Shown: positions 52,879 to 64,000 of the stretch, one piece after another
Numbering within the stretch: the stretch's first letter is position 1
How the letters are laid out: each line of letters starts with the position of its first letter
From: Paeniglutamicibacter quisquiliarum
GTDB lineage: Bacteria > Actinomycetota > Actinomycetes > Actinomycetales > Micrococcaceae
Direction: 5' to 3'
NCBI RefSeq assembly: GCF_019084045.1
Contig: NZ_JAHRED010000001.1
Span: 682,001 to 746,000 of the forward strand
DNA: 64,000 bases
Made by a program: the position numbers and the translations under genes
The notes under the pieces: generated by a model
The model's database searches: none
The model's input: the letters and a program-made list of their open reading frames with translations, nothing else
Told to the model about the DNA's origin: nothing

Positions 52879-54186
52879 CTAGCCGGCCCAGAGCGGCGAG
52901 ATGGCCTTGTAAAGCTGCTGGACACCCAGGGAAATGAAGAGCAGGGCGGTGATGCCCAGCAGGATGTTGGTGTGCAGCTTGTTGGACCAGACCTTGGGGA
53001 TCCGCTTGCCGTTGAGCAGGCCCAGCAGCGTCAGTGCCAGGAACGGCATGAACAGCGAGCCGAGCACGCCGTAGGCCAGGATCAGGCCGATCGGCTGGTC
53101 AAGCAGGAACAGGACCATCGGCGGGAAGGTGAGCCACAGGACGTAGAACTTGAAGTACTTGCCGCCCACGCGGGTGTCCTCGTGCCCGGATTCCTTGCCG
53201 CGGATGTTGCCCCAGAAGTCGGCGAACATCAGCGAGACGCCGTTCCATACCCCGATGATCGAGGAGAAGGATGCTGCCCAGAAGCCCACCAGGAACCCGG
53301 TGCCAACCACGTCGCCGTACTTCTCGTTGAGCACATTGGTCAGGTCGAGCAGGCCGGCATCGCCGGCACTCAGCGAGACGCCCGCGGCACGCACCACCTC
53401 GGCGCCGACAATCAGCATGGCAATGACGAAGATGCCGGTGATCACGTACGCCATGGTGTTGTCGATGCGCATGACCTTCATCCACTTGGGCGTGTACCAG
53501 CCCTTCTCACGCAGCCAGTACCCGTAGGCCGCCAGGGTGATGGTGCCGCCGACGCCGCCGGCCAGTGCCAGGGTGTAGACCAGGCCGCCGGAGGGGATGA
53601 TGGGGATCAGGCCCTTGAACATCTCGGGGATGTTCGGCACGGCGATGATCGCCAGGCCGACCACGGTGACGAACATGATGCCCACCAGCACCGCGGTGAT
53701 CTTCTCGAAGATCGCGTAGCGGCCGAACCAGACCATGGCGAAGCCGGCCAGTCCCATCAGGACCGCCCAGATCTTCAGGTCGATGGCCGGGAAAAGCGCT
53801 GCCAGCGGCATGGCCGCGGAGCTCATCGCGGTGGCGCCGTAGACGAAGCCCCAGATGATGATGTACGGGCCGAAGTACCAGGTGGTCCACCTGCCCAGGG
53901 ACTTCCAGCCTTCGAAGATGGTCTTTCCGGTGGCCAGTGTGAAGCGTCCGGCGCCTTCGACCAGGATGATCTTCAGGATGACGCCGATGATCACCGCCCA
54001 GAGCAGGCCGTAGCCGTAGCGGGAGCCGGCCACCAGGGTGGCGACCATGTCGGCGGCGCCGACGCCGGTGGCCGCAACGACCAGGCCGGGGCCGACGATT
54101 TTCCATTTGGCGGGCTTGCCGCCGTCATCGTCGATGCGGTCGGCATGCGACACCTTGACCGGCGGGACATTGTCTTGTGTTGGCAT
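52879..54186 (-). CDS. Nramp-superfamily carrier lacking the canonical metal-binding motifs
   Basis: A 435-residue protein with about eleven helices and clear Nramp architecture (WKIVGPGLVVAATGVGAAD, AGSRYGYGLLWAVIIGVILK, FTLATGKTIFEGW). The helix-1 DPGN motif is replaced by GAAD (residues 43-46) and the helix-6 MPH motif by hydrophobic/Ala residues in GGTITLAAYGYW. The usual Asp, Asn and Met ligands for manganese or iron are therefore absent, so the substrate may differ (magnesium-type Nramp relatives also deviate at these sites). ATG 54186 is used; the frame is open further upstream. Confidence 0.85.
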   Translation of the reverse strand: MPTQDNVPPVKVSHADRIDDDGGKPAKWKIVGPGLVVAATGVGAADMVATLVAGSRYGYGLLWAVIIGVILKIILVEGAGRFTLATGKTIFEGWKSLGRWTTWYFGPYIIIWGFVYGATAMSSAAMPLAALFPAIDLKIWAVLMGLAGFAMVWFGRYAIFEKITAVLVGIMFVTVVGLAIIAVPNIPEMFKGLIPIIPSGGLVYTLALAGGVGGTITLAAYGYWLREKGWYTPKWMKVMRIDNTMAYVITGIFVIAMLIVGAEVVRAAGVSLSAGDAGLLDLTNVLNEKYGDVVGTGFLVGFWAASFSSIIGVWNGVSLMFADFWGNIRGKESGHEDTRVGGKYFKFYVLWLTFPPMVLFLLDQPIGLILAYGVLGSLFMPFLALTLLGLLNGKRIPKVWSNKLHTNILLGITALLFISLGVQQLYKAISPLWAG

Positions 54187-54588
54187 CAGCCTATTTTTCC
54201 TAACCCTTGTGGTTGCCGTATGTGCCTGGGATGTCTCCCGCGGGGCGGCACATCCGGCACGATCCTGCGCATCCTCCGGGCCGGCACACTGCCCGTGGGA
54301 CGCCCTGCGGCGGAAGACGTCCGCCGGTGGCGCAGGGGACCGGCCCGGTACGAGATCGCAGCGTTGCGGATCGATGTGGGCCAAGTCCCGTGCGAGAGTC
54401 TTGTCACAGACTAAGGTATAGGTGATCGTGCGCACACCCACGCTCATTTGCCTTTTCCTAACACTTTCTTAAGGAACCGTCCGGTGCGCCGTTTTGGCAT
54501 TTTCTGCATCGACCTGCTTCGCGGCCGCATCGGCGGGCAGCACGCGGCGGGGGTTCATCCGCACGAACGGGGCGGCTAGGATCGCATC
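54187..54588. other. Divergent intergenic region, 402 bases
   Basis: No gene is visible between the Nramp-like gene and the S9 peptidase gene. The decamer TTTTCCTAAC occurs twice (54195-54204 and 54453-54462), the first just ahead of the Nramp-like start. TAGGA (54578-54582) is the ribosome-binding sequence of the peptidase gene. The middle is GC-rich and featureless. Confidence 0.4.
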
Positions 54589-58111: not shown

Positions 58112-59455
58112 TTAGTCCCGGGCCGCCTCGCGCTCCACGTCGAGCGCGACTGCCGGGGTCTCGGCGATCCGCTTCGGGATCAGCGACACCGCAACCGCTG
58201 CGATGACCCCGACGATGGCGAAGAAGACGAAGTTGAACTCGAAGCTCAACCCGGTCGAGGCGATCCAGCCGCCGATGATCGGGCCGGAGATGGCGCCGAT
58301 GCGGGCGAACGACAGCGCCCACCCGGTGGCGGTGCCGCGCTGGGCCGGCGGGTAGTAGTCGGCGATGTAGCCGGTGAGCACCAGCGAGGTGGAGATCGAT
58401 CCGATGCCGGCAAACGCCACGAAGCAGAGGTTGACGAACATGGTGTTCGGGAACATCAGCAACAGGATGCCGCCGGCGCCGAGCAGGTAGAAGAGCACCA
58501 GGATGGTCTTCTGCCCGTACTTGTCTGCCAGGTAGCCCAGGACCAGGCCGCCGATGGCCGAGGCCAGGGAGAACACGAGCAGGAAGGCCAGGGAGGATCC
58601 CAGGTCGTAGCCGGCCTTGCGCATGATCTGCGGCAACCAGGTGTTCAGCCCGTAGACCAGCACCATCCCGCAGAACAACGAGATCCAGAAGAACACCGTG
58701 GAGCGCAGGTATTTCCCGGAGAACATGGCACCCATGACCTCGCGCCAGGGGATGCGCCGGCCCGGGTTGGCAGGTGCCACCGGGCGGTAGTCGCGCACGT
58801 TCAGCTTCGCGGCCAGGGCCTTGGCCTCGGGAATCCGGCCCTTGGCCACGAGGTATTCAAGGGACTCGGGAACGAGCCAGGCGACCACGGGAAGAATCAG
58901 CACCGGAAGCGTGCCCACGGCGATCACCCAGCGCCAGCCGAGGGTCGGCAACAGTGCCATGGCCACCATGGCCGCCGCCACGATGCCCAGCGAATAGCCG
59001 GAATACATGATGCCGTAGTTCAGCGAGCGCTTCTTGGGGGCCGAGTATTCAATGGTCAGTGCCGCGGCAACCGGGATGATCCCGCCCATGCCCAGGCCGC
59101 CCAGGAAACGGAAGAAGCCAAACATCTCCGGCGTCGGAGCCAGGGCGGCGCCGGCCTGGGTAATGGTGAAGATCGCCATCGAGAGCAGGAGCATCCTGCG
59201 CCGGCCGATGATGTCGCTGAGGGTGCCGATGAACAGGGCCCCGAAAAGCATCCCGACCAAGGCGTAGGCACCCAACCCGCCAAGCTGAAGTGGGGTCAGC
59301 GACCATTCCTGGTATTCCGCCAACGCAGGGAGGACCGCGCCGAGCACGCCCACGTCGTACCCTTCGGCCAAGATGGCCAGCCAACAGGCAAAGAGGACCA
59401 CCGAGGTGGTGCGTTTGGGGATGTTCCAGTCGGTGCTGGCTTGTGTTGACGCCAT
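58112..59455 (-). CDS. MFS importer, aromatic acid:H+ symporter (AAHS) type
   Basis: A 447-residue twelve-helix transporter. GYDVGVLGAVLPALAEYQEW in helix 1 and GTLSDIIGRRRMLLLSMAIF after helix 2 are AAHS hallmarks (the DxGxxG aspartate couples protons in PcaK/BenK). FFRFLGGLGMGGIIPVAAAL and the late YIADYYPPAQRGTATGWALS agree. It is divergent from the thioesterase-cyclase-ThDP genes and is likely the uptake system for their aromatic substrate. Confidence 0.9.
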   Translation of the reverse strand: MASTQASTDWNIPKRTTSVVLFACWLAILAEGYDVGVLGAVLPALAEYQEWSLTPLQLGGLGAYALVGMLFGALFIGTLSDIIGRRRMLLLSMAIFTITQAGAALAPTPEMFGFFRFLGGLGMGGIIPVAAALTIEYSAPKKRSLNYGIMYSGYSLGIVAAAMVAMALLPTLGWRWVIAVGTLPVLILPVVAWLVPESLEYLVAKGRIPEAKALAAKLNVRDYRPVAPANPGRRIPWREVMGAMFSGKYLRSTVFFWISLFCGMVLVYGLNTWLPQIMRKAGYDLGSSLAFLLVFSLASAIGGLVLGYLADKYGQKTILVLFYLLGAGGILLLMFPNTMFVNLCFVAFAGIGSISTSLVLTGYIADYYPPAQRGTATGWALSFARIGAISGPIIGGWIASTGLSFEFNFVFFAIVGVIAAVAVSLIPKRIAETPAVALDVEREAARD

Positions 59456-59571
59456 GCTTGGGGCTCCTCGTCAATAAGGGTGCGAGTGGTGCAGGTGGTG
59501 GATCAACGAATGCTTGTATTATGTCGTTAAGGTGACGTGCGTAACAATAGTTGAATGGAGAATTCTTAGCG

Positions 59572-60063
59572 ATGGTCAACGAAATTGAGGAACGTGTCGA
59601 TGCCGGAGCGGCCGACGTCGCTCGACTGGTGGAGGATTTCCTGGCAGGGAAAATCCGGGGCGCCTCCCTGGAGCGCACCATCGAGTGGGTTGACACCGAC
59701 GCCGCCGGGCATCAGCACAACTCCGCGATCATGCGCTTCGTCGAGGCCGCCGAGGCCAGGCTCTTCCGGTTGCTCGGGGCCACCTCGTACTTTGGCATTG
59801 CACCCCGGGTCCGCCACGAAATCGATTACCGCGCAAAACTCTACTTCGGGCAGCAAGTCAGCGCCGCAATCGCGATCGAACATGTCGGCACGAGCTCCAT
59901 GGCGTTCGTGTTCAAGGTCTGGGGACACCCGCACGAGGGGCGGGAACCCGTGTTGGCGGCCGAGGGCCGCTTCGTCACCGTCTGCGTGCCGCAGGGTGCC
60001 GAGGAATCCGCTCCCTGGCCCGAAACGATCCTCACCGCGATCGCGTCAAAATCCACCATCTGA
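59572..60063 (+). CDS. Acyl-CoA thioesterase-like hotdog protein (YbgC type)
   Basis: A 163-residue hotdog-fold protein. TIEWVDTDAAGHQHNSAIMR (about residues 36-55) carries the Asp and the HxxN-type helix start of 4-hydroxybenzoyl-CoA thioesterase/YbgC relatives; VRHEIDYRAKLYFGQQVSA is the central strand pair. The N-terminal 30 residues are an extra helix. In this cluster it could hydrolyse an aromatic or ring-cleaved acyl-CoA. ATG 59572 is used (GGAG 11 bases upstream); a TTG at 59551 is possible. Confidence 0.83.
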   Translation: MVNEIEERVDAGAADVARLVEDFLAGKIRGASLERTIEWVDTDAAGHQHNSAIMRFVEAAEARLFRLLGATSYFGIAPRVRHEIDYRAKLYFGQQVSAAIAIEHVGTSSMAFVFKVWGHPHEGREPVLAAEGRFVTVCVPQGAEESAPWPETILTAIASKSTI

Positions 60064-60140
60064 GCAGGACTTATACGCGGGACAAGTTCGCTGGTAGCCT
60101 GACCGCAATCAACCACCCCCCAACCGCTTGGAGCCCCGCC

Positions 60141-60923
60141 TTGAGTCCCGTACAGAACATGCTTTCCTCGCTTGCCGCGGGATCGACGGAGGTCTTCGAC
60201 CTGACCGCGCCGCTTTCTTCCCGCACGCCGACGCTGGTGCTGCCCGAACCGTTCTCCAACCTCATCGACTTCAGCATCGAGGAAGTGTCGGCCTACAACG
60301 AGAGCGGCCCGCTGTGGAAGCACCACAACATCCACACCGGCGAACACATCGGCACGCACCTTGATGCACCCATCCACTGGGTGTCGGGGCGCGGTGGCAA
60401 GGACGTTTCCCAGCTGGATCCCGCCCGGCTGGTCGGCCCGGCCGTGGTTTTGGACTTCAGCGCCGAGGCGGAGGCGGACCCGAATTTCCTCATCGACGTT
60501 GCGCACCTGGTCGCCTGGCAAGAGGAGCACGGACCCTTCCCGGCCAATGCGTGGCTGCTCTTCCGCACCGGATGGGACCGGTACGACCACGACCCACAGG
60601 CCTTCCTGAACCTCGACGACAACGGATCGAACACCCCCGGATTCACCGCCGCATGCGCCCGGTGGCTCGCCGAGGAACTGGATATCTCCGGCGTCGGGGT
60701 CGAGACGGTCGGCATCGATGCCGGCAACGCGGCAGCTCAGGATCCGCCCTTCCCCATGCACCACTTCCTGCTCGGGGCCGACAAGTACGGCATCACCTCG
60801 CTGAAGAACCTCGACAAGCTGCCCCCGCACGGGGCCATGGTCGTGGTCGCCCCGCTGCCGATCGTCGGCGGTACCGGCGCACCGACCCGCGTGCTGGCCA
60901 TTGCGGCGGGAGTCGGGGCATGA
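60141..60923 (+). CDS. Cyclase-family metal-dependent hydrolase (isatin hydrolase / kynurenine formamidase-like)
   Basis: A 260-residue hydrolase of the cyclase family. The metal motif HIGTHLDAPIH is at residues 69-79, with His69, His73 and Asp75 as predicted Mn/Zn ligands, spaced as in isatin hydrolase. The second half (GIDAGNAAAQDPPFPMHHFL, then LGADKYGITSLKNLDKLPP) resembles isatin-hydrolase-like members more than bacterial KynB. The expected reaction is ring opening of isatin to isatinate, or formylkynurenine hydrolysis. The TTG start follows GGAG; ATG 60159 is the alternative. The stop overlaps the ThDP enzyme start (ATGA). Confidence 0.85.
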   Translation: MSPVQNMLSSLAAGSTEVFDLTAPLSSRTPTLVLPEPFSNLIDFSIEEVSAYNESGPLWKHHNIHTGEHIGTHLDAPIHWVSGRGGKDVSQLDPARLVGPAVVLDFSAEAEADPNFLIDVAHLVAWQEEHGPFPANAWLLFRTGWDRYDHDPQAFLNLDDNGSNTPGFTAACARWLAEELDISGVGVETVGIDAGNAAAQDPPFPMHHFLLGADKYGITSLKNLDKLPPHGAMVVVAPLPIVGGTGAPTRVLAIAAGVGA

Positions 60924-62578
60924 ACGTCGCGCAGCTGGTGGGCAAGACCCTGGCCGAACTCGGCGTCGGACACTGCTTCGGCGTGGTCGGCTCCGGAAAC
61001 TTCACCATCACCAACGCCCTCATCGAACACGGGGTGCCCTTCACCGCCGCCCGGCACGAGGGCGGGGCCGCGACCATGGCCGACGCCTTTGCGCGCTCCA
61101 GCGGCCAGGTGGCGCTGCTCTCGGTGCACCAGGGCTGCGGGCTGAGCAATGCGGCAACCGGGATCGGGGAGGCGGCCAAGTCCCGCACCCCGATGATCGT
61201 GCTGGCCGCCGAGGCCGCGCCGAGCGCCGTGTATTCGAACTTCGCCATGGACCAGGACGGTTTCGCCGCCTCGCTCTACGCGATCCCCGAGCGCGTCCAC
61301 GGCGCCGCCAGCGCCGTGGACGACACCGTGCGGGCCTACAAGCGCGCGGTCAACGACCGCCGCACCGTGGTGCTGAACCTGCCGCTGAACGTCCAGGCGC
61401 AGGAGGTCACCGAGGAGCAGTCTGCCGCACCGGTCGGCATCGCGGCGGCGGAACCGATCCGCCCCTCGCGCGCCTCGGTCGCCGCGCTGGCAGGGCTGAT
61501 CGAGAAGGCCGAGCGCCCGGTGTTCGTCGCCGGCCGCGGAGGCCGCGGCGCCCGGGACGAAATCCTGTCCCTGGCCCAACACGCCGGAGCCCTGGTGGCC
61601 ACCTCGGCGGTGGCCAAGGGCCTGTTCAACGGGGACGACTTCAACCTGGGCATTTCCGGGGGCTTTTCCTCCCCGCTGGCGGCCGAGCTGATCACGGGGG
61701 CGGACCTGATTGTCTCCTTCGGCTGCGCCCTGAACATGTGGACCATGCGCCACGGGCATTTGATCGGCGAGGCAACCAAGGTGGTGCAGGTCGACGTGGA
61801 GGACCAGGCGCTGGGCGCCAACCGGCCAATCGACCTGGGCGTGGTGGGGGACTCGGCACAGTGCGCCGCTGATGTCCTGGAAGCGCTGACCGGCCGAAAT
61901 TTTGCCGCCCGGGAAGGCTACCGCTGTGCCGGGATTCGCGGGCGCATCAAGGAATCCATCCACTGGAACCAGATCGACTACGAGGACCTCTCCGACGGCC
62001 GGCGCATCGACCCGCGCACGCTGACCAAGGCCCTGGACGGGCTGCTGCCCGCCGAGCGGATCGTCAGCGTCGATTCGGGGAACTTCATGGGCTACCCCAG
62101 CCAGTTCCTCTCGGTGCCCGACGAGTTCGGCTTCTGCTTCACTCAGGCCTTCCAATCCATCGGCCTGGGCCTGTACACCGCGATCGGCGCGGCCCTGGCG
62201 CAACCCGGGCGGATCCCGGTGCTGGGCACCGGGGACGGCGGCTTCCACATGGCCATCGCGGAGCTGGACACCGCCGTGCGCCTGGCCCTGCCGCTGGTCT
62301 GCATCGTCTACAACGACGCCGCCTACTCGGCCGAGGTACACCACTTCGGTGCCGTTGCCCCGGAGTCCGACATGGGCACCGTGCAATTCCCCGACACCGA
62401 CTTCGCCGCCATCGGCCGCGGCTTCGGGGCCGAGGGTATCACCGTGCGCACGCCCGAGGACCTGGACGCCGTGGGTCACTGGCTGGCCTCGAACCCGTCC
62501 GGGCCACTGGTCATCGACGCGAAGATCGCCTCGGACTCGGGCTCCTGGTGGCTTGCCGAGGCCTTCAAGGGGCACTGA
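60920..62578 (+). CDS. ThDP-dependent decarboxylase-like enzyme (benzoylformate decarboxylase / ALS family)
   Basis: A 552-residue enzyme with the three-domain ThDP fold. The cofactor-activating Glu47 is in AARHEGGAATMADAF and the ThDP/Mg motif GDGGFHMA...VYND starts at Gly438. It is translationally coupled to the cyclase-family hydrolase. If that enzyme makes isatinate (2-aminobenzoylformate), this one would be well placed to decarboxylate it, since the substrate is an amino-substituted benzoylformate. The substrate is inferred from context; acetolactate-synthase-like carboligation cannot be excluded. Confidence 0.85.
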   Translation: MNVAQLVGKTLAELGVGHCFGVVGSGNFTITNALIEHGVPFTAARHEGGAATMADAFARSSGQVALLSVHQGCGLSNAATGIGEAAKSRTPMIVLAAEAAPSAVYSNFAMDQDGFAASLYAIPERVHGAASAVDDTVRAYKRAVNDRRTVVLNLPLNVQAQEVTEEQSAAPVGIAAAEPIRPSRASVAALAGLIEKAERPVFVAGRGGRGARDEILSLAQHAGALVATSAVAKGLFNGDDFNLGISGGFSSPLAAELITGADLIVSFGCALNMWTMRHGHLIGEATKVVQVDVEDQALGANRPIDLGVVGDSAQCAADVLEALTGRNFAAREGYRCAGIRGRIKESIHWNQIDYEDLSDGRRIDPRTLTKALDGLLPAERIVSVDSGNFMGYPSQFLSVPDEFGFCFTQAFQSIGLGLYTAIGAALAQPGRIPVLGTGDGGFHMAIAELDTAVRLALPLVCIVYNDAAYSAEVHHFGAVAPESDMGTVQFPDTDFAAIGRGFGAEGITVRTPEDLDAVGHWLASNPSGPLVIDAKIASDSGSWWLAEAFKGH

Positions 62579-62623
62579 GGATTAATCCTTCGTGCCCGGA
62601 AGCGGGCCATCGGATTCGTTGGC

Positions 62624-62736
62624 CGAAGGGTTCTAGCCCTTCGCCGGGCATCGCGGGCTCTTCGCCGCAGGGGCGCCCGGAGGAAGCGGAAAGGCAGTGG
62701 CCGGTTCCGCCCTGCGGCGGAGCCGGCCACTGCCTT
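62624..62736. terminator. Two hairpins between convergent genes
   Basis: CGAAGGG (62624-62630) pairs with CCCTTCG (62637-62643) just after the ThDP enzyme gene. A stronger 14-bp stem, AAGGCAGTGGCCGG (62691-62704) with CCGGCCACTGCCTT (62723-62736), precedes the stop of the leftward gene and can serve both strands. Confidence 0.8.
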
Positions 62737-62754
62737 GGCTGCGTGGCGCCGGGT

Positions 62755-64000
62755 TTAGGCGCTGGGAACCAGGCCCTTGGCATACCCGGCCGGCGCCGCC
62801 TGGGCAGGGGTCCAGCGCAGGTGGACCTGCTCGTCGATTGCGTTTTCCTTCAGCAGCGACAGGCGCGGGCGGACCGCGTCGGTGCGGGAGCTTGGCGGCT
62901 TGCGGCGGCCTGCCTTGAACGGCAGCGGCCAGCTGGCGCCCTCGCCCGCGTAGTCCTGCTCGGCGGCGGCCTGCAGCGTCCAGGCCGGGTTGTACAGGTG
63001 CGTGCGGCCCAAGGCCACCAGGTCGGCGCGGCCCGCCAGCAGGATCGAGTTCACGTCGTCGTAGGAGGAGATCGCGCCCACCGCGATGACCGCGACGCCG
63101 GCCGCGGCAGCGACCTGGTTGCGGATCTTGTCCGCGAACGGCGTCTGGTAGCTGCGCCCGAAGGCGGGGCGCTCGTTGCGCACGATCTGCCCGGAGGAAA
63201 CGTCAATGGACTTGACCCCGTGGTCGATGAATGCCCGGGCGATGGCCAACGCGTCGTCTTCGGTGTTCCCGCCCTCGGTCCAGTCGGTGGCGGAGATGCG
63301 CACGCCGATCGGCTTGTGCGCCGGCCACGCCTCGCGCACCGCGTCGAGAATCTCGAGCGGGTAGCGCAGGCGGTTTTCCAGCGACCCGCCGTACTCGTCG
63401 GTGCGCTCATTTGAAAGCGGGGACAGGAAGGAGGAGAGCAGGTAGCCGTGGGCGGCGTGCAGCTCGAGCAGGTCAAAGCCCGCTTCGTCGGCGCGGCGGG
63501 CCGCGGCGACGAACTGCCCGCGGACCTCATCCATCATGGCCCTGTCCATTTCCACCGGCACGTGGCAGCCCTCGCCGTAGGGAATCGCGCTGGGGGCCAG
63601 CACCTCCCAGTTTCCCGATTCCAGCGGCTCGTCGATGCCCTCCCACATGAGCTTCGTGGAGCCCTTGCGGCCGGAGTGGCCGATCTGCGCGCCGATCTTG
63701 GCCTGCGAGTTGGCGTGCACGTAGTCGGTGACGCGCTTCCAGGCGCTTGCCTGCTCGTCGTTGTACAGGCCGGTGCAGCCGGGGGTGATCCGGCCGATGT
63801 CCGAGACGCAGACCATTTCGGTCATGACCAGCCCGGCACCGCCCATGGCCTTGGATCCCAGGTGCACCAGGTGGAAGTCCCCGGGGACGCCGTCGGTGGC
63901 CGAGTACATGTCCATGGGGGAGACGACCACGCGGTTGACCAGGTCCAGCTCGCCGATCCTGTAGGGCTGGAACATGGCCGGGGCAACCTGGTCCGACCCC
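62755..64000 (-). CDS. Old-yellow-enzyme domain, probably the C-terminal part of a 2-aminobenzoyl-CoA/salicylyl-CoA monooxygenase-reductase (partial)
   Basis: At least 415 residues; the frame stays open to the window edge, so the 5' end is missing. The visible part is an FMN-dependent OYE barrel: MFQPYRIGELDLVNRVVVSP with MDMYSATDG, TEMVCVSDIGRITPGCTGLY, AQIGHSGRKGST (substrate-binding His and Arg), DLLELHAAHGYLLSSFLSPL and DVSSGQIV. The ATG at 63975 lacks a ribosome-binding sequence, and the codons before it read GSDQVAPA, as in linkers of bifunctional salicylyl-CoA 5-hydroxylase/2-aminobenzoyl-CoA monooxygenases, where an N-terminal FAD monooxygenase precedes this domain. It would hydroxylate and reduce an aryl-CoA. 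Confidence 0.82.
   Translation of the reverse strand, partial: GSDQVAPAMFQPYRIGELDLVNRVVVSPMDMYSATDGVPGDFHLVHLGSKAMGGAGLVMTEMVCVSDIGRITPGCTGLYNDEQASAWKRVTDYVHANSQAKIGAQIGHSGRKGSTKLMWEGIDEPLESGNWEVLAPSAIPYGEGCHVPVEMDRAMMDEVRGQFVAAARRADEAGFDLLELHAAHGYLLSSFLSPLSNERTDEYGGSLENRLRYPLEILDAVREAWPAHKPIGVRISATDWTEGGNTEDDALAIARAFIDHGVKSIDVSSGQIVRNERPAFGRSYQTPFADKIRNQVAAAAGVAVIAVGAISSYDDVNSILLAGRADLVALGRTHLYNPAWTLQAAAEQDYAGEGASWPLPFKAGRRKPPSSRTDAVRPRLSLLKENAIDEQVHLRWTPAQAAPAGYAKGLVPSA

Follow-up and report, generated by a model that had tools for sequence, protein, structure and literature searches.

Among the closest described counterparts of the locus reported here are the iad auxin-degradation loci of Variovorax and Bradyrhizobium, which include IorA/IorB, a 2-oxoacid ferredoxin oxidoreductase pair whose homologues are IadA/IadB (PMC9613470). 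According to a preprint, IadI, annotated as a kynurenine formamidase, acts downstream of C8H7NO2, and C8H7NO3 and C7H7NO are likely intermediates before anthranilate; the accessible text assigns no gene to this step (PMC12633357). We read C8H7NO3 as isatinate and C7H7NO as 2-aminobenzaldehyde. Our search of the open-access literature, outside which subscription journals mostly lie, found no named enzyme or gene for isatinate decarboxylase, and a review poses as a question whether isatin is a true intermediate of indole breakdown (PMC6221969). Here we describe a gene pair from the soil actinobacterium Paeniglutamicibacter quisquiliarum that consists of an isatin-hydrolase-like cyclase gene (CYC) and the gene for a thiamine diphosphate (ThDP)-dependent enzyme (THDP). 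The pair lies in a 64,000-nucleotide stretch (the window; positions 682001-746000 of contig C1) of a 4.44-Mb genome in 35 contigs. Locked to the cyclase as it is, the ThDP enzyme is a candidate for the gene-less isatinate step.

We consider it fairly probable that CYC converts isatin to isatinate and that THDP decarboxylates isatinate towards anthranilate, feeding an anthraniloyl-coenzyme A (CoA) route whose predicted monooxygenase-reductase and CoA ligase are encoded alongside. In this scheme CYC would open isatin itself, or a substituted form of it, by hydrolysis and so give isatinate, which is a 2-aminophenylglyoxylate. Translational coupling ties THDP to CYC, and THDP would decarboxylate isatinate; the simplest product would be 2-aminobenzaldehyde. 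An aldehyde dehydrogenase encoded away from the cluster would turn this aldehyde into anthranilate, which then enters the anthraniloyl-CoA route. Gene order, protein families, conserved catalytic residues, linkage counts and the identity of the ligase to a published anthranilate-CoA ligase are what the sequences show; the substrates of both enzymes, the aldehyde step and the role of RidA are what we infer. The two genes themselves are as follows.

60141-60923, plus strand: CYC, an isatin-hydrolase-like cyclase/amidohydrolase (PF04199) with the motif HIGTHLDAPIH and matches in the Protein Data Bank (PDB)
60920-62578, plus strand: THDP, a single-chain ThDP-dependent enzyme with all three TPP domains

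Read directly from the sequence, the two genes overlap by ATGA (60920-60923), the coupling that an earlier sequence-only reading of the window had pointed out. The same reading had recognised a cyclase-family hydrolase with a metal motif, of which only the C-terminal half was held to resemble isatin hydrolase. The resemblance is real, but it covers almost the entire cyclase: isatin hydrolases head the PDB matches of CYC (5nmp, at 2.1e-71, as well as 5nnb, 5nna and 4j0n), and these matches are near full-length. Its HIGTHLDAPIH conforms to the isatin hydrolase metal motif HxG[T/A]HxDxPxH. The metal-binding and proton-transfer residues of these enzymes have been assigned, and a swapped dimer forms the pocket in enzymes of this type (PMC6117287). 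The LaIHA residues H69, H73, D75, H79, D193 and H207 fall in invariant columns of our 13-sequence alignment (A1), and the six metal/catalytic residues are kept in all 134 loci with a usable match (144 loci given; D or E accepted at D193). Solved relatives and conserved residues together support an isatin-hydrolase-type cyclase; judged by its sequence, CYC is isatin-hydrolase-like, with membership of the class unproven.

THDP yielded a predicted model (mean predicted local distance difference test score, 86.4) that suggests a fold of the benzaldehyde-lyase/2-hydroxyacyl-CoA-lyase kind, with 18-28% identity to the 50 best fold matches. A profile search gave no match at 1e-60 and was rerun at 1e-25; the nearest solved relatives belong to four types, namely benzaldehyde lyase, 2-hydroxyacyl-CoA lyase, acetolactate synthase and ThDP-dependent HKA synthase. 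Residues S25, E47 and H70 are invariant in alignments of 19 (A2) and 34 (A4) sequences, and S25 aligns with the serine of 3iae, an A28S benzaldehyde lyase crystallised with benzoylphosphonate. The three may correspond to Ser26, Glu47 and His70 of benzoylformate decarboxylase.

Comparison with relatives gives strong support for the pairing of hydrolase and ThDP enzyme. Among the named loci, which are the best 80 of 588 THDP relatives and all actinobacterial, 75 have CYC no more than 150 bp away from THDP; L118, L140, L144, L172 and L178 have no CYC. Given this retention of the pair, we conclude that the five genes at the end of the window are not chance open reading frames (ORFs). Within the organism's own family (197 genomes), 65 genomes have CYC (E <= 1e-60), 75 have a THDP relative with 49% identity or more, and 40 have the monooxygenase-reductase. 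A THDP relative was present in every one of the 65 genomes with CYC and in 37 of the 40 with the monooxygenase-reductase, although the Fisher values for this family are too small owing to shared ancestry. THDP and the monooxygenase-reductase lie no more than 15.5 kb apart in 25 of these 37 genomes and farther apart in 12, six of them on other contigs. A phylum set of 396 genomes contributed 34 CYC loci outside the focal genome: THDP adjoins CYC in 25 of them, two split ThDP subunits do so in six, and three (L092, L097 and L098) have no ThDP partner. Within about 10 kb of CYC in this set we found the monooxygenase-reductase in six loci and the ligase in seven.

The rest of the locus was read in the window and in L005 (C1:739000-756000), a segment that spans beyond the window end and whose coordinates become window coordinates on adding 56999.

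58112-59455, minus strand: major facilitator superfamily (MFS) transporter of the aromatic-acid/H+ symport type; MFS_1 above cut-off, TIGR00895 the best match
59551-60063, plus strand: hotdog acyl-CoA thioesterase; 4HBT_2 and 4HBT above Pfam cut-offs
62755-64000, minus strand: C-terminal old yellow enzyme (OYE) part of an 808-amino-acid monooxygenase/reductase of the 2-aminobenzoyl-CoA type, whose gene goes on to about 65181
L005:5756-8182 (window 62755 to about 65181), minus strand: the full ORF of this 808-amino-acid flavin adenine dinucleotide (FAD)-monooxygenase/OYE fusion
past the window end, after the monooxygenase-reductase, minus strand: AMP-binding CoA ligase (LIG), in L005
past the window end, after the ligase, minus strand: TesB-like thioesterase, in L005
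L005:10786-11271, minus strand: cupin of 161 amino acids, after TesB
past the window end, after the cupin, minus strand: FAH-family hydrolase, in L005
L005:12318-12737 (window about 69317-69736), plus strand: RidA, after FAH
past the window end, after RidA, minus strand: PaaX-type regulator, in L005
past the window end, after PaaX, plus strand: D-2-hydroxyacid dehydrogenase, in L005

The OYE domain of the fused monooxygenase/reductase type, the hotdog thioesterase and the aromatic acid:H+ symporter-type transporter named in the sequence-only reading are thus all in place, as are, past position 64000, the FAD monooxygenase domain and CoA ligase that it hoped to see there. The fusion scores 1224 bits against NF006101 (cut-off, 1078; residues 8-774) and so falls in that class, with its activity predicted. 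LIG is 72% identical to ARUE_RS22905 of pAL1 (NC_009453, Arthrobacter sp. Rue61a), the cupin is 85% identical to its pAL1 counterpart, and the two loci share the gene order PaaX, RidA, FAH, cupin, thioesterase, ligase, fused monooxygenase. The pAL1 ligase gene and a chromosomal paralogue have anthranilate-CoA ligase activity, anthranilate supports the growth of Rue61a while salicylate and gentisate do not, and C7H7NO3 and C7H8O4 are reported as their CoA esters (PMC3534580, whose old locus tag is tied to the pAL1 record through gene order, by inference). As a close relative of an active ligase within a shared operon order, LIG is a predicted anthranilate-CoA ligase. From the ligase identity, the gene order and these activity and growth data, we read the substrate of the lower operon as anthranilate rather than salicylate, and the convergence on anthraniloyl-CoA proposed earlier holds up.

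RidA is recurrent in anthraniloyl-CoA operons, including that of pAL1 (L063). It could hydrolyse the enamine 2-amino-5-oxocyclohexenecarboxyl-CoA, a reaction in line with the reported CoA ester of C7H8O4, a deaminated compound (PMC3534580). The cupin is among the best conserved operon proteins (83-93% where found in the relatives, with lower values at L064, 75%, and L077, 70%); it has no specific family name and no assigned reaction. The hotdog thioesterase is the first plus-strand gene ahead of CYC; pAL1 has a counterpart at 49% (tblastn), where a hotdog protein is annotated. The MFS transporter, with a TIGR00895 score of 306 bits that is under the cut-off of 418.55, has counterparts in 8 of 20 relatives' neighbourhoods; uptake of an aromatic acid is possible, and isatin may enter by this route. 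Isatin hydrolases are manganese dependent. An Nramp-family metal transporter (Pfam Nramp above cut-off) is encoded at 52879-54447 on the minus strand of the window.

Those 20 neighbourhoods were selected from Micrococcaceae; 15 contain CYC and nine the monooxygenase-reductase and/or ligase. Upper-pathway genes of the indole-monooxygenase-like or auxin type do adjoin the pair in some relatives. For instance, a styrene/indole-monooxygenase-like module stands next to CYC in four of the 20 (L027, L029, L031 and L036) and comprises a short-chain dehydrogenase/reductase (SDR), a StyA-like protein, a StyA-flavin reductase fusion and an amine-oxidase-like FAD oxidoreductase; in L029, Pfam confirmed AraC, SDR, styrene-monooxygenase A and flavin-reductase domains. 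Thiolase and CoA-ligase genes occur in three (L028, which was checked further, L033 and L043). In Rhodococcus erythropolis R138, CYC-THDP is found together with thiolase, ligase and aldehyde dehydrogenase, and Deinococcus psychrotolerans encodes monooxygenase-reductase, SDR, MarR, enoyl-CoA hydratase, acyl-CoA dehydrogenase, ligase, CYC, THDP and RidA in a single run. If true, our proposal would explain how actinobacteria connect upper pathways of the indole or auxin type with the anthraniloyl-CoA route. As a separate observation, the amine-oxidase-like FAD oxidoreductase repeatedly accompanies the indole-module SDR (L027, L029, L031, L036, L059, L064 and L077), even at loci that gave no match to StyA (L059 and L077).

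THDP is not the only ThDP enzyme to keep company with such cyclases. Because the named loci are all actinobacterial, proteobacterial contexts are represented by plasmid records only. Of 61 CYC-bearing plasmid records, 40 contain IorA, 19 of these within 5 kb; THDP (at least 50% identity) is in five, the two together in none, and neither in 16, including Roseibium and Labrenzia records. The distances are for the best place per record, and the 61 records include many from closely related sources (19 Sulfitobacter). Tsukamurella has genes for indolepyruvate:ferredoxin oxidoreductase next to CYC, with an anthraniloyl-CoA operon to one side and, to the other, AraC, SDR and an FAD oxidoreductase resembling the indole module, plus a flavoprotein like the flavin-containing monooxygenases (FMO). 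A 20-kb region of Alloyangia pacifica holds the cyclase, IorAB, an annotated styrene/indole monooxygenase, a flavin reductase, the monooxygenase-reductase, RidA, cupin and FAH; it has no annotated AMP-binding ligase, as would be expected if IorAB itself forms the CoA ester. Possibly, then, IorAB gives anthraniloyl-CoA directly from an isatinate-type 2-oxoacid, although Tsukamurella, with both IorAB-type genes and a ligase, argues against a strict rule that IorAB replaces the ligase. The third arrangement, the split ThDP loci (L069, L073, L074, L075, L081 and L089), has two subunits of about 170 amino acids each, which in L081 match the Pfam N- and C-terminal TPP domains.

The recurrence of a ThDP 2-oxoacid enzyme beside the cyclase suggests that the cyclase most likely yields a 2-oxoacid, as isatin hydrolysis does. 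We put at about even chances the broader idea that isatinate-type 2-oxoacids are handled by at least three interchangeable ThDP enzymes, in which case the single-chain form would make up a new family of isatinate decarboxylases that is widespread among actinobacteria. The three partners would be the single-chain decarboxylase, the oxidative IorAB and the split two-subunit enzyme, an interchangeability that would surprise specialists.

Several observations weigh against the assignment of the pair to isatin. Anthranilate genes are rare near the named pairs (monooxygenase-reductase in 5 of 80 loci, ligase in 4 of 80), and the first 25 of the 175 families in a Pfam neighbour tally, which covered 149 of 183 proteins from 26 of 32 loci chosen out of the 80, include no dominant family. 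Four family genomes (G048, G086, G159 and G176) and Cryobacterium L172 keep THDP linked to the monooxygenase-reductase in the absence of CYC, and the genomes of a single family and the 19 Sulfitobacter plasmids are non-independent samples. The isatin signatures are WXW/FXW and GLQC/GLAS (PMC6117287), where the focal CYC has WKH and GITS. The wider CYC family does retain WxW, in 68 of the 75 named loci and in 30 of the 34 from the phylum set; Micrococcaceae mostly have WxH (14 of 16 with a match), a form that also occurs in Tsukamurella, whose cluster has no StyA-like gene and an FMO-like flavoprotein in its place. No isatin-forming gene stands beside the focal cluster. An aldehyde dehydrogenase, which the sequence-only reading had advised looking for, was not found in that cluster; the best match in the genome to the R. 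erythropolis enzyme is only 36% identical, and such a partner occurs in 4 of the 80 named loci.

The focal genome also bears on where isatin might come from. An indole-3-acetate (IAA) pathway, as the sequence-only reading had envisaged, is not supported here: tblastn found no indole or IAA marker in L005, neither Rieske, IAA-type ligase nor thiolase, and the best genome-wide matches were 32% for the ligase and 31% for a Rieske subunit. What remains of that proposal is the anthraniloyl-CoA route, the isatin-hydrolase-type CYC and the ThDP coupling. A StyA1-like monooxygenase gene on contig C7 (G000:C7:34253-35473; L052:8172-9500) is 67% identical to the StyA1 of a relative's indole module; no StyA2B, SDR or cyclase was seen next to it, but there is an FMN-reductase gene at a distance of about 5 kb.

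The rarity of nearby anthranilate genes and the altered isatin motifs of the focal clade would also be explained if CYC and THDP acted on a cyclic 2-oxo amide or lactone other than isatin, the 2-oxoacid from its ring opening then being decarboxylated and the anthranilate genes lying close by in certain lineages only. In both split-ThDP loci that were checked (L073 and L081), acyl-CoA dehydrogenase genes no more than 10 kb from the cyclase point the same way. We consider this unlikely, though it deserves to be taken seriously, given that the linkage to the monooxygenase-reductase and ligase recurs in Micrococcaceae, other actinobacteria and Deinococcus, that styrene/indole-monooxygenase-like genes are linked as well, and that most of the wider family retains WXW. 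A markedly less probable arrangement would place THDP downstream, cleaving the ring product of the monooxygenase-reductase in the manner of cyclohexane-1,2-dione hydrolase, a distant relative of THDP, while CYC supports the step. The CYC-free linkage seen in L172 and in 4 of the 197 family genomes is in keeping with this, whereas pAL1 has the same lower operon and is absent from the records listed with THDP or CYC, and THDP loci keep CYC (75 of 80) far more than the monooxygenase-reductase (5 of 80).

It is very improbable that CYC is the kynurenine formamidase of a tryptophan-kynurenine-anthranilate route and THDP unrelated to it. CYC is the sole TIGR03035 match in the genome, and tryptophan dioxygenase and kynureninase are encoded there, so anthranilate can also derive from tryptophan; the two genes are on other contigs (C23 and C30), not next door, where they would have told against the isatin proposal of the sequence-only reading. 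The TIGR03035 score, however, is 29.8-31.7 bits against a cut-off of 223.05, and CYC has Thr at the position of LaIHA Gln219, where verified KynB enzymes conserve Glu (PMC6117287). On score and motif we rejected this identity for CYC, which would also leave the ATGA coupling to a ThDP enzyme unexplained. Salicylate degradation via salicylyl-CoA and gentisate, which the NF006101 name and the cupin and FAH genes would fit and for which a flanking gene set was earlier named as the sign, is scarcely credible and was rejected as the lower pathway on pAL1 identity and gene order, the same-order set being the anthranilate set of pAL1 (PMC3534580) and an amino substrate fitting RidA. 'Salicylyl-CoA 5-hydroxylase' is probably a misleading name for the monooxygenase-reductase here, and a warning to annotators.

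Set against known systems, the focal locus shares with pAL1 the gene set and order from PaaX to the monooxygenase-reductase. It differs in having both CYC and THDP, pAL1 being absent from the plasmid records listed with either, and in its proposed feed, since the pAL1 lower pathway is supplied from quinaldine (PMC3534580). Relative to LaIHA, LaIHB and RsIHA (5nnb/5nna, 4j0n/4m8d and 5nmp), CYC shows near full-length homology and the same six metal/proton-transfer residues, yet departs from them at both signature motifs. CYC is paired with THDP, whereas the Roseibium aggregatum cyclase, 96% identical to LaIHA, stands in an iad-type operon with no THDP in the 20 kb examined. THDP and the benzaldehyde lyase/formolase chains have a common fold (template modelling score, 0.83-0.87), yet only 26-28% identity. 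S25, E47 and H70 of THDP may match the catalytic Ser, Glu and His of benzoylformate decarboxylase. The THDP score in the NCBIfam model for that enzyme (PRK07092) is far under the cut-off (139.9 versus 493 bits).

The iif/GS indole clusters of Acinetobacter and Providencia have a StyA-type monooxygenase, SDR and AraC, as in the module of the relatives, and the Providencia cluster has a PF04199 cyclase as well; the accessible text names no ThDP enzyme in them, and the focal pair has no adjoining indole module (PMC9871250, PMC12538310). In the iad loci, a cyclase-type step follows dioxindole/isatin and anthranilate is the end product, as we propose here (PMC9613470, PMC12633357). The focal cluster differs from them in having no adjoining Rieske, thiolase or IAA-type ligase gene and in its single-chain ThDP enzyme, which, if our proposal is true, would be the missing step between isatin and anthranilate.

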